This document shows positions 1-63,964 of a stretch of DNA of 64,000 bases, one piece after another. Each line of letters opens with the position of its first letter. The stretch's first letter is position 1. The notes below the pieces were generated by a model, which saw nothing but the letters and a program-made list of their open reading frames with translations, ran no database searches and was not told the DNA's origin. The position numbers and the translations under genes were made by a program. The DNA is from Methanomicrobiales archaeon HGW-Methanomicrobiales-3 (GTDB lineage Archaea; Halobacteriota; Methanomicrobia; Methanomicrobiales; Methanospirillaceae): the NCBI GenBank assembly GCA_002839605.1, contig PGYK01000012.1, forward strand, positions 1 through 64,000. Reading direction: 5' to 3'.

Positions 1-333
1 AAATTCTCAATTATACTTCCGAGTTAGTTGATATCGTCCATTTGCTCGGACCGCCAGTTGAAAAATATTACTCGCTCAAAAATTAATGCCGAATGTCGGT
101 TTCATGGGAAAAACTGCGATGGATATGCATTGGGTTGCGATGGGACCACGGGCGCTCGGGGTCTCATCGACCCTCGCCCCGTAGAGCAGGCCGTTAATAG
201 GCACCGGAAACTGAATGATAGAACCGGGGGTCAAGGAGGCTTGCCCCCTTGGTGTGCCTCCCCCTCTGGGGGAGAGAGGGGGTCACCATCGTAATTCCAC
301 AAAAGGATGCTATGTGAATGATTTCTTCAGAGC
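1..333 (-). repeat. Interspersed element, partial inverted copy
   Basis: This gene-free stretch is a reversed partial copy of the element found whole at 30001-30680, 57103-57712 and 63286-63964. Read on the minus strand it begins at 333 with GCTCTGAAGAAATCATTC, runs through the TTTTGTGGAATTACGATGG box, the GAGAGGGGG hairpin, the GGGGGCAAGCC hairpin and the GGGTCGATGAGACCC hairpin, and fades out near 120. The remainder to position 1 shows no clear match. The T-tract at 341-347 flanks its outer end, as in other copies. The open frame across 28-294 is discussed as part of the element and not called as a gene. Confidence 0.8.
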
Positions 334-29734: not shown

Positions 29735-29983
29735 ATGGAGACCATGATTGGGAGAGTAACCCACTACTACCCGAAGATCAGTGTCGCGGCAGTGGTCCTT
29801 GACGGACATCTTGCCAGAGGTGACCGGATCCACATCCGCGGACCGCACGATGACGTGCACCAATCCGTAACCTCGATGGAACAGGAGCATGTGCCAATTC
29901 AGGAAGCCGATACCGGGCAGGATATCGGCATCAGGGTGATCGAGCGCGTCCATAAGGGGGATGCGGTATTCATCGAGCGTTGA
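29735..29983 (+). CDS. EF-Tu domain-2-like small protein
   Basis: 82-residue beta-barrel protein resembling domain 2 of translational GTPases, with IGRVTHYYPKISVAAVVLDG, LARGDRIHIRGPHDD and DIGIRVIERVHKGDAVF; no GTPase domain is present. Stand-alone domains of this type are widespread in methanogens and some bacteria and have no proven role. The start ATG 29735 follows GGAGGC at good distance (GTCTGGAGGCAAAACACC). It ends before T-tracts and the element at 30001. Confidence 0.8.
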   Translation: METMIGRVTHYYPKISVAAVVLDGHLARGDRIHIRGPHDDVHQSVTSMEQEHVPIQEADTGQDIGIRVIERVHKGDAVFIER

Positions 29984-30018
29984 TTTTTTCACTTTTTTTT
30001 AGCTCTGGAGAAACAGGC

Positions 30019-30147
30019 ATGAACCGATTAGGTTCACACCAGAACGATGAAAAACACATGTTCTGGGGATATTCTTTGAGCACTCTCTGCCCTGGGGCGT
30101 CCCATGCATGGCACGGCGGGGCAATGACCGGTTTGGAAAAATGGTAA
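30019..30147 (+). CDS. Candidate small protein at left end of the element
   Basis: 42-residue frame that starts inside the left inverted repeat: GGAG, eight bases, ATG. Its first 12 residues, MNRLGSHQNDEK, are identical to the frame at 46437-46568; the two DNA differences in that stretch (CGA/CGG, TTA/TTG) are silent. After residue 14 the two proteins diverge. It may be a real microprotein, a relic, or a by-product of the repeat. Confidence 0.3.
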   Translation: MNRLGSHQNDEKHMFWGYSLSTLCPGASHAWHGGAMTGLEKW

Positions 30148-30352
30148 TGAAAGCCGCCGCGGGGCGCCCTTCGGGGCGGCGGCAGTAATCCCCACGGGGT
30201 ATGGGGGCATCAGCCCCCATCAATATTCTTTTCGCGTTTTTCATGGGAAATCATTCCCACAGTGTCATTTTGTGGAATTGCGAGGGTGACCCCCTCTCCC
30301 AAGAGAGGGGGAGGCAGCCTGCGGGGGCAAGCCCCCACAACCCCCGGTTCTA

Positions 30353-30661
30353 TCATTTAGTTTCAGGCGCCCATTTACGGCCTGATCCACAAAGGCGAGG
30401 GTCGATGAGACCCCGAGCGCCCGTGGTTCCATCGCAGATCAATCTATGATCTCTGGCAGGTTTTCTAAATGAAAATATTCGCTGGGTTCCTCTGTCCGAG
30501 TGTCCTGCATGCACGCCAAAATCCGCACAATCGCATCCGCAGCCCGACCATTGCGCGACGCTCTTGGTCCTTGTCGCCCCCATAAGGAGTGCAAGGATGC
30601 GGGCGAGGACGTTATTTTTCTGCATATTTTCATGCTTCGGGTGTGAACCATTCCGGTTCAT
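30353..30661 (-). CDS. Candidate 102-aa protein of the element
   Basis: Open frame of 102 residues entering from the right inverted repeat on the minus strand: GGAG, AAACGAGC, ATG 30661. It begins MNRNGSHPKHEN and contains KNNVLARILALLMGA, AQWSGCG and, near the end, GARGLIDPRLCGSGRK. The same peptides are recognisable in other copies, where the frame is shorter (57531-57692) or shifted (63800-63945). Changes between copies are mostly silent or in-frame. It may be a small gene carried by the element; no family or function is recognised. Confidence 0.4.
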   Translation of the reverse strand: MNRNGSHPKHENMQKNNVLARILALLMGATRTKSVAQWSGCGCDCADFGVHAGHSDRGTQRIFSFRKPARDHRLICDGTTGARGLIDPRLCGSGRKWAPETK

Positions 30662-30944
30662 GCTCGTTTCTCCAGAGCAATTTTTTTTTAAGATAGCAGC
30701 ATCCTGACCATTTCATTAGACGCAAAGCAATACGAAAGTTTTAACCATGGTTTCCACACGAAATGATTGCCTCGCACTAGTGCACAGCACTTAGCTCATT
30801 ATCCGTACAAGGGGAAGATCATCCTCCTGCAGCAGGCACCCATGAGCGGGCGGATCCCAATAGTATTCACGGGAAATGAGCATCCGCTGGAGGTTCAGGT
30901 TTTTTAAAAACTGCTGAAAAGAAAAATGGTACCCAGGGACTGCC

Positions 30945-31130
30945 TTATACAGCCCTGACTGCATCGATCTTGATGTAGCGGCGCGCTAATTTGTGCTTGC
31001 TGCCGATAACGGCGAACGTGCGCTCCTTTGCCTGCTTCTCGTTGGGTGCCTCGATGACCTTGGTATAGGGCATCCAGTCCTCACCCATCAGAAACGTGCC
31101 TTTCACTTCAAACTTCTGCTCTGCTGCCAT
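30945..31130 (-). CDS. rplX: 50S ribosomal protein L18Ae (LX)
   Basis: 61-residue archaeal ribosomal protein LX/L18Ae: FEVKGTFLMGEDWMPYTKVI, AKERTFAVIGSKHKLARR and a short C-terminus IKIDAVRAV are typical. It ends the rps19e-to-rplX operon. In related archaea pfdA follows immediately; here the repeat element does. Confidence 0.94.
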   Translation of the reverse strand: MAAEQKFEVKGTFLMGEDWMPYTKVIEAPNEKQAKERTFAVIGSKHKLARRYIKIDAVRAV

Positions 31131-43184: not shown

Positions 43185-43393
43185 GGGTACAGGCAATTGA
43201 AGCCACCGCGGGAGTGCCCCCGCGGGGGCGGCGGCAGGAATCGCAAACGGGGTATGGGGGCATCAGCCCCCATAATCTATTCTTCTGGAAATTTTGTTTT
43301 TCATGGGAAATCCTTACAACCTTTCTGAATTCGATTGCGATAGAGCCACGGGCGCTCGGGGTCTCGTCGACCCTCGCCTTTGTGGAGCATGAA
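43185..43393 (-). repeat. Interspersed element, partial inverted copy
   Basis: In the 513-bp gap 42944-43456. It is colinear with the reverse of 63413-63630: AATTGAAGCC, a GCCCCCGCGGGGGC hairpin, TATGGGGGCATCAGCCCCCAT (43253-43273), TTTTTCATGGGAAATCC, TTCGATTGCGAT, then GGGCGCTCGGGGTCTCGTCG and CTTTGTGGAGCA. Both terminal inverted repeats are missing. Positions 42944-43184 and 43394-43456 hold no gene I trust; a 52-64 residue minus-strand frame there is unsupported. Confidence 0.75.
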
Positions 43394-46306: not shown

Positions 46307-46427
46307 TATTTCACGGAAGTGACGTTACCGCCATGATTTTTATCTCTTTCGATATTTGCGACAGAGGGTTTTTCTGTCGTTGCATTTTTATGGCAATCAT
46401 GAAAAGATTGGATGAAATCCCGGTGGT

Positions 46428-46729
46428 GAAACAGGCATGAACCGGTTGGGTTCACACCAGAACGATGAAAAACGCATGCCCGGGGGAGATCTTTTGGGCA
46501 CTTCCCGATTCAGGGCACAACACAGGGAACGCAAGGAGGAAACCCCGGCCCGGAAAACCGGTAATTGAAGCCGCCGCACAGGCGCCCATTTTTGTCGGCG
46601 ATCGTTCATCACATCCATGGGTGTCGTGGCAGCGTACCCCCATGATAATGTCATTTCATGTTTTTCACGGGAAAAACCAGGAGCGCCCCATGGGATGGCA
46701 TGGTGGCATGACAGAGATGCGGGGGGGAG
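46428..46729 (+). repeat. Interspersed element, left-end fragment
   Basis: Fills most of the 423-bp gap before cobQ. From 46428 GAAACAGGCATGAACCGG, GGTTCACACCAGAACGATGA and AAACGCATG match the left inverted repeat at 30010-30060, with the outer GCTCTGGA degraded. Next come CCGGTAATTGAAGCCGCCGC and TTTTTCACGGGAAAAACC, as in the other copies. The hairpin boxes and the right end are absent. A 43-residue frame at 46437-46568 starts MNRLGSHQNDEK. The stretch 46307-46427 shows nothing else. Confidence 0.75.
46437..46568 (+). CDS. Candidate microprotein at element left end
   Basis: 43-residue frame whose first 12 residues (MNRLGSHQNDEK) equal those of 30019-30147, with only silent differences; the rest is Arg/Lys/Glu-rich. 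The ribosome binding site is weak here because the outer inverted repeat is damaged. Possibly a relic. Confidence 0.25.
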   Translation: MNRLGSHQNDEKRMPGGDLLGTSRFRAQHRERKEETPARKTGN

Positions 46730-57102: not shown

Positions 57103-57712
57103 AGCTCTGTTGAAATTATTCCCACAGCGCCCTTTTGTGGAATTACGATGGTGAATCCCTCTCTCCACCAGAAAGGGAGACCCCCCAAGGGGGCAAGCCC
57201 CCAAAACCCCCCGTTTCAATCATCTATTTTCAGGTACCCATTAACGGCCTGCTCCACGGATCAAGGGGCGAGAGACCCCGACCGCCCGTGGCTCCATCGC
57301 AACCCATATTTATCGATCGCAGGATTTCTCCCATGAAAACACCCACGATGCCTGCGGCCACAGGAAAACAGACTGGAAATGGAATCTTTTATTTCCCTAT
57401 TAAATCACCATCGACAAGCATTTCCAGAACTGTTGTTGTTTTATTGCGATGCCTGCCGCCACCCCCGCGGGGCGCCCCCGTGGCGGCCTCAATCCGGATT
57501 CACCATTAAAAATTCCCGGAAATCACCTGTTTAAGGGGCTAATATATGGGCTATTTGGGGCACAATCGCTTCCGCAGCCTGACCATTGGCCGACGATGGG
57601 GGCCTTGCCGCCCCCATAAGGAGTGCAAGGATGCGGGCGAGGACATTATTTTTCAGAGTATTTTCATACTTCGGGTGTGAGTGCCCGTTCATTTGCGTTT
57701 CTCCAGAGCACC
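57103..57712 (+). repeat. Interspersed element, full-length copy
   Basis: 610 bp from AGCTCTGTTGAAA (left, one arm mutated) to TTTCTCCAGAGC (57698-57709, right), flanked by T-tracts at 57094-57102 and 57713-57718. Internal order: TTTTGTGGAATTACGATGG, AGGGA hairpin, GGGGGCAAGCCCCC hairpin, the GGGGCGAGAGACCCC region, then a GCCGCC/GGCGGC module in reverse orientation (57447-57492), then GGGGCACAATCGCTTCCGCA and CCCCCATAAGGAGTGCAAGG. Its right end opens a 53-residue minus-strand frame (57531-57692). Confidence 0.85.
57531..57692 (-). CDS. Candidate 53-aa protein at element right end
   Basis: Minus-strand frame opening in the right inverted repeat: GGAG, AAACGCAA, ATG 57692. It begins MNGHSHPKYENT and shares KNNVLARILALLMGA with 30353-30661, one codon shorter before that block, so the frame is kept. 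After residue 34 the frame differs from the other copies. Candidate only. Confidence 0.35.
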   Translation of the reverse strand: MNGHSHPKYENTLKNNVLARILALLMGAARPPSSANGQAAEAIVPQIAHILAP

Positions 57713-63265: not shown

Positions 63266-63285
63266 TTCAGGCTCCCCCTTTTTTT

Positions 63286-63964
63286 GCTCTGGAGAAATCA
63301 TTCCCACTGTGTCCTTTTGTAAAAATAACGATGGTGACCCCCTCTCCCCGGGGGGAGGCAGCCTGCGGGGGCAAGCCCTAAAAACCCCCGGTTTCAATCG
63401 TCCATTTTCAGGTGCCCGTTTACGGCCTGCTCCACAAAGACGAGGGTCGATGAGACCCCGGGCGCCCAAATCACCATCGCAATCGAATCCAGAAGGGTGG
63501 TGAGGATTTCCCATGAAAAACGGATTTTAAGAAGATTAGATTATGGGGGCTGATGCCCCCATACCCCCGTGGGGATTACTGCCGCCGCCCCGTAGGGCGC
63601 CCCGCGGCGGCCTCAATTACCGGTTTCACGAACCGGAAATTGCCCCGCCGTAATCCGCGAGGGGGCCAGAATCGGTTTCGCTCAAAGAAATCTCCTGTTT
63701 AGCGTTTTTCATTATTTGGGCGCGAACTCCCGTTCATGGTTGTTTCCCATGAAAATACTCCAACCGATCTCTTCTGTACGGGGTCCCTCATGAAGCCATA
63801 AGGGGCACTATCGCTTCCGCAGCCCGACCATTGCGCGGGCGATGGGGGCCTCGCCGCCCCCATAAGGAGCGCAAGGATACGGGCGAGGACGGTATGTTCA
63901 AATGTTCATCTGATTTTCATCATTCGGGTGTGAACTCCCGTTCATGTGCGTTTCTCAAGAGCAC
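63286..63964 (+). repeat. Interspersed element, full-length copy
   Basis: 679 bp from GCTCTGGAGAAA (63286) to TTTCTCAAGAGC (63951-63962), flanked by T-tracts 63279-63285 and 63965-63969. Order: TTTTGTAAAAATAACGATGG, CCCCGGGGGG hairpin, GGGTCGATGAGACCC (63444-63458), reversed TATGGGGGC module (63542-63564), reversed GCCGCC/GGCGGC hairpin (63580-63610), GGGGCACTATCGCTTCCGCA and CCCCCATAAGGAGCGCAAGG. The small frame from the right end (ATG 63945) is stopped after 15 codons and its continuation is frameshifted, so this copy looks decayed. 63970-64000 is unassigned. Confidence 0.85.

Follow-up and report, generated by a model that had tools for sequence, protein, structure and literature searches.

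The repeat at 30001-30679 of the window (the whole 64,000-nt stretch of DNA that was analysed) is very probably a non-autonomous composite MITE, presumably moved by an IS5-family transposase, that of an insertion sequence (IS) with which it shares the terminus TGCTCTGTAGAAA. A shared terminal inverted repeat (TIR), 8-bp target-site duplications (TSDs), an IS partner present in relatives and as ends in the own genome, a high copy number and a non-coding pattern of change were all observed, and the element is without a conserved protein product. Its ends of ~45 bp, made up of the TIR and a CATGAAC...GTTCACACC dyad, are common as DNA to many MITE variants. The ATG in these ends is incidental to the dyad, and the GGAG found here is a sporadic form of a variable part of the TIR, the consensus of which is GTAG.

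Limits, ends and setting of the element

The preliminary description had reported an element with inverted repeats at its ends and had drawn its limits at 30001-30680. The inverted repeats are real, with arms (30002-30053 and 30627-30678) of 52 nt each that are 83% complementary, while the right end was moved to 30679, the target duplication lying outside it. The features of this copy are as follows.

30001..30679, no strand: MITE copy under study, A-A type, composite (basis: TIRs, TSD and genome-wide copies)
29993..30000, no strand: left TSD TTTTTTTT (7/8 match to 30680-30687; 8-bp register from 110 TIR pairs)
30680..30687, no strand: right TSD ATTTTTTT
30001..30013, plus strand: left TIR AGCTCTGGAGAAA (family consensus TGCTCTGTAGAAA)
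30667..30679, minus strand: right TIR TGCTCTGGAGAAA
30002..30053, plus strand: type-A end block with ATG at 30019-30021 and dyad TGAACC-N5-GGTTCA
30627..30678, minus strand: type-A end block with ATG at 30661-30659 and dyad
30153..30222, plus strand: GC-rich hairpin module, genus-wide, also away from recognisable TIRs
30247..30470, plus strand: embedded B-C MITE, outer TIR bases lost (basis: stand-alone copies with TIRs and TSDs)

Both arms carry GGAG, eight bases and then ATGAACC-N5-GGTTCACACC, and both ATGs open inward frames (30019-30147 on the plus strand, 42 codons; 30353-30661 on the minus strand, 102 codons), exactly as had been described. The element is flanked by an 82-aa gene (29735-29983) and a 61-aa gene (30945-31130), and the left TSD is the poly-T tract behind the former. 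This TSD is of low complexity (7/8 in poly-T) and by itself weak proof of transposition. Between the same two genes no TIRs were found in the five relatives that keep the pair; the intergenic DNA has diverged in all five, and therefore only the absence of TIRs was demonstrable there, with no exact empty site found.

Target-site duplications

Over 110 TIR pairs, the flanks matched as an 8-bp direct repeat one base outside GCTCTG at 0.616, versus 0.366 +/- 0.019 for re-paired flanks. Agreement of at least 7/8 was reached in 41 of the 110 pairs, and the TSDs at this level were 77% A+T. Other repeat lengths and offsets exceeded random only where they overlapped the 8-bp register. The pairs were drawn from the own and related genomes; some of them overlap or are wrongly joined, which dilutes the true TSD signal in these figures. 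Thus the family duplicates an 8-bp target, as MITEs duplicate theirs.

Copy number, end types and distribution of the family

The own genome, 2.59 Mb in 18 contigs, contains roughly a hundred copies of the element family, complete or incomplete. At E<=1e-3 the element gave 102 matches there, mostly to parts of it, and the 12-bp terminus GCTCTGGAGAAA had 113 matches with at most one mismatch, versus 9 for a reversed control pattern, well above what chance would give. The catalogue of copies, built by searches and extracted stretches, is large and non-exhaustive. The part conserved among copies is the terminus TGCTCTGTAGAAA, behind which stands one of several inner end types.

Type A: CATGAAC..GTTCACACC..ATGAAAA
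Type B: GAAATCATTCCCAC
Type C: GAAAACCTGCCAGAAATCATAG
Type D: GAAATCCTGACCACC

The elements fall mainly into size classes of about 208-250, 335-490 and 600-700 bp. Copies within the window are situated between genes; the further ones are as follows.

57103..57710, no strand: family member, B end to A end (TSD 6/8)
63285..63963, no strand: family member, B end to A end (TSD 7/8)
46424..46577, plus strand: fragment, degenerate type-A end and inner module
108..333, minus strand: B-module copy adjoining the contig edge
43206..43389, plus strand: fragment, GC module and part of a B-C MITE

Two other repeats of the window were seen. The first ~100 positions (1-100) recur at the start of another contig of the assembly (C8, L073); this contig-edge repeat is probably the terminal part of a different insertion sequence. 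At 639-2455 a direct repeat of about 246 bp occurs eight times and encodes WDFGDG...-type units that, judged by eye, are probably PKD-like surface-protein domains.

Matches to the element were present in 33 of 36 genomes of the genus Methanoregula (own included) versus none of 24 from other genera of the order; some of the weaker cross-genome matches are the GC hairpin module alone, and the genus name of the host follows the genome list, not a marker-gene tree. Exact type-A ends in named genomes were found in records labelled Methanoregula, unclassified Methanomicrobiales and, once, Methanolinea. The repeats are a high-copy MITE family of Methanoregula, largely confined there, with the many dispersed, mostly intergenic copies of a MITE. 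The literature searched for MITEs or insertion sequences of Methanoregula contained no description of this family. Thus, of the earlier suggestion of a possibly undescribed selfish or regulatory gene-element family, the selfish repeat family without a description in the literature searched holds, while the gene content does not; the family is ordinary in kind.

The partner insertion sequence

In the own genome, six contig edges break inside two sequences that start with the family TIR, and these two sequences are the two ends of an IS of 939-996 bp in relatives (copies L126, L130 and L133). The IS copies in relatives have perfect 8-bp TSDs and a TIR identical to the MITE terminus TGCTCTGTAGAAA; moreover GCTCTGTAGAAA(W)CC is common to all three copies and to the MITEs, the sharing of TIRs with an IS that is typical of MITEs. 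The transposase of L126 is stop-free throughout and belongs to the IS5 family (NF033579, 5.5e-56, above the cut-off; PF01609, 3.8e-19), while L130 and L133 look frame-damaged. The own contig edges hold a C-terminal stretch of the transposase with 80-82% identity. There is no intact IS interior in the own assembly, and we therefore inferred the partner from its ends and from the relatives.

The ISH1 group of the IS5 family makes 8-bp duplications. The partner IS, of the same family, with 8-bp TSDs and a length near 1 kb, would agree with this group by the duplication alone; unlike the ISH1 group, the MITE itself has no transposase.

The terminus (~13-16 bp) is the only sequence common to IS and MITE: the IS copies read have other inner end sequences and no type-A dyad. 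This would fit a second, different transposase moving the type-A MITEs, one whose own IS bears the CATGAAC dyad. Such a second mover appears unlikely, as TIR, TSD length and TSD offset are identical for the IS, the B/C/D-type and the A-type elements, and among the loci read (a non-exhaustive set) no type-A pair enclosed a transposase. In the preferred reading, the transposase of the IS5-family IS would recognise the common terminus TGCTCTGTAGAAA of IS and MITE, mobilise the MITEs and insert them into A/T-rich 8-bp targets, duplicating 8 bp; here the target would be the poly-T tract behind the 82-aa gene. The dyad may be kept for mobility, as a binding site or as a hairpin.

Comparison with known MITEs

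The archaeal MITEs of Methanosarcina and Methanococcoides with IS5-family partners are 140-252 bp long with 0- or 3-bp duplications (PMC3852290, Table 4), and like the present family they are non-autonomous, multi-copy and geneless, have TSDs and have less than 20 nt in common with an IS5-family IS; other archaeal MITEs likewise share only the terminus with their partner IS (PMC3852290). On the other hand, the present family has 8-bp duplications, ranges from 208 to ~700 bp, is composite and nested, and occurs in Methanoregula. The preliminary description had set the repeats apart from MITEs, mistakenly, since IS-shared termini, 8-bp TSDs and the lack of a transposase or other conserved gene are MITE features. 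Nor are start codons at the ends new among MITEs: MITEAba12 of Acinetobacter (113 bp) has start codons and a few codons in its termini, with possible fusions to neighbour genes (PMC6382973). The present family likewise has start codons, with a few codons after them, in its termini; sequence and host are unrelated, and the frames of MITEAba12 run outward while those described here run inward.

Composite structure and RNA folding

When free, the B-C MITE is about 235 bp and has full TIRs and TSDs, as at C15:42377-42611, where AAAATTTC bounds it left and right. The copy embedded in the larger element has TTTTTCATG in place of its outer bases at one end and ATGAAAA at the other. A junction motif, TTTTTCATGGGAAA or its complement, recurs where inner modules lose the TIR.

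30231-30250, 30465-30478, 43302-43315, 57328-57338, 63505-63517, 63745-63757: sites of the junction motif TTTTTCATGGGAAA

Copies of the GC hairpin module also occur without a TIR within 700 bp, and the module at 30153-30222 may be an independent genus-wide repeat. Conservation of this module between species, about 80-93%, exceeds that of the other parts of the element. Of 92 copies, 58 have C-G and 28 have T-A as the top pair of its hairpin GGGGGC-N4-GCCCCC.

The predicted folding of the whole element was strong (z -9.7), and the alignment of the embedded MITE folded better than column shuffles (z -3.9 / -4.6), which would suit a structured non-coding or regulatory RNA gene that is only incidentally repetitive. 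We consider this very unlikely: the long inverted repeats and GC palindromes explain the folding by themselves, compensatory pairs are almost absent from the embedded MITE, no convincing compensatory change was found in the terminal dyad (mostly invariant or G-U), and modular shuffling and TSDs speak against it. An Rfam search returned no family at the element, the three weak hits being far below gathering scores, and a known structured RNA was rejected on this ground.

Start codons and coding potential

The inverted repeats had been interpreted as ribosome-binding sites and translation starts of small proteins. Consistent with this, GGAG is suitably spaced in both ends of 30001-30679, and 52 of 59 type-A ends read in the own genome keep the ATG. 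However, ATG is kept just as the neighbouring bases of CATGAAC are, being part of a conserved DNA dyad: CATGAAC is the left arm of TGAAC...GTTCA, all five pairs of which are kept in 43 of 56 readable ends, G-U included. GGAG failed the refuting test set in the preliminary description, as it is not conserved across copies. It occurs in 18 of the 59 own ends (GTAG in 17, GGTG in 9) and in 13 of 90 ends of other Methanoregula genomes, where GTAG is the norm (60 ends); the pattern used for the 90 ends left the bases that vary between GGAG and GTAG free among G/T and A/T. Columns 7-8 of GCTCTGNNGAAA, which make the GGAG/GTAG difference, are the least conserved of the 12-bp terminus in the 59 own ends. 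Within the window, the equivalent starts listed at 46437 (plus), 57692 (minus) and 63945 (minus) all have the ATG; GGAG stands only at 57692, with GGTG at 46437 and TTGAG at 63945.

The first ~12 codons from the ATG are alike among copies because they lie inside the end block. Afterwards the frames scatter, the same inner DNA being read in different frames (as VLARILALLMGA in some copies, as SSPASLHPLWRR or RPCPHPCAPYGG in others), and the median frame from a type-A ATG is 19 codons. The 102-codon region was compared over 65 aligned stretches, some of which overlap one another: substitutions by codon position were 422/260/357, with no third-position excess, and 120 of 136 indels were not multiples of three and thus frame-breaking. 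Two further points are in favour of small proteins: the two dyad subgroups differ by 3 nt, and the synonymous share of end-block changes was 0.35 versus 0.23 expected in one of them, where much of the variation sits in the dyad loop (0.21 versus 0.19 expected in the other, i.e., neutral). A Pfam/NCBIfam search of the 102-aa frame gave no family match.

Thus neither a conserved ribosome-binding site with its ATG nor a reading frame conserved between copies was found, and with GGAG unconserved, scattering frames, frame-breaking indels and no family match, a small-protein gene was rejected and a selfish or regulatory gene-element of this design is extremely unlikely.

One locus was seen (L105, G000:C12:139536) at which a truncated type-A end has its ATG in frame ~36 codons upstream of the downstream gene. 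That gene resembles, by eye, a sugar-nucleotide transferase (rfbF-like), and its native start is probably an internal Met.

Implications

It is highly doubtful that the 45-bp end block has been co-opted in some copies, as a leader peptide of ~12-19 codons or as a new start for an adjoining gene; if it were true, the MITE family would spread ready-made translation starts. In Methanoregula genomes the family accounts for many intergenic repeats as well as several breaks in the assemblies, and it calls for caution before frames that begin in MITE ends are annotated as small proteins. Moreover, its MITEs are nested and modular and have a plausible partner IS, which makes them useful for studying the recombination of such families.
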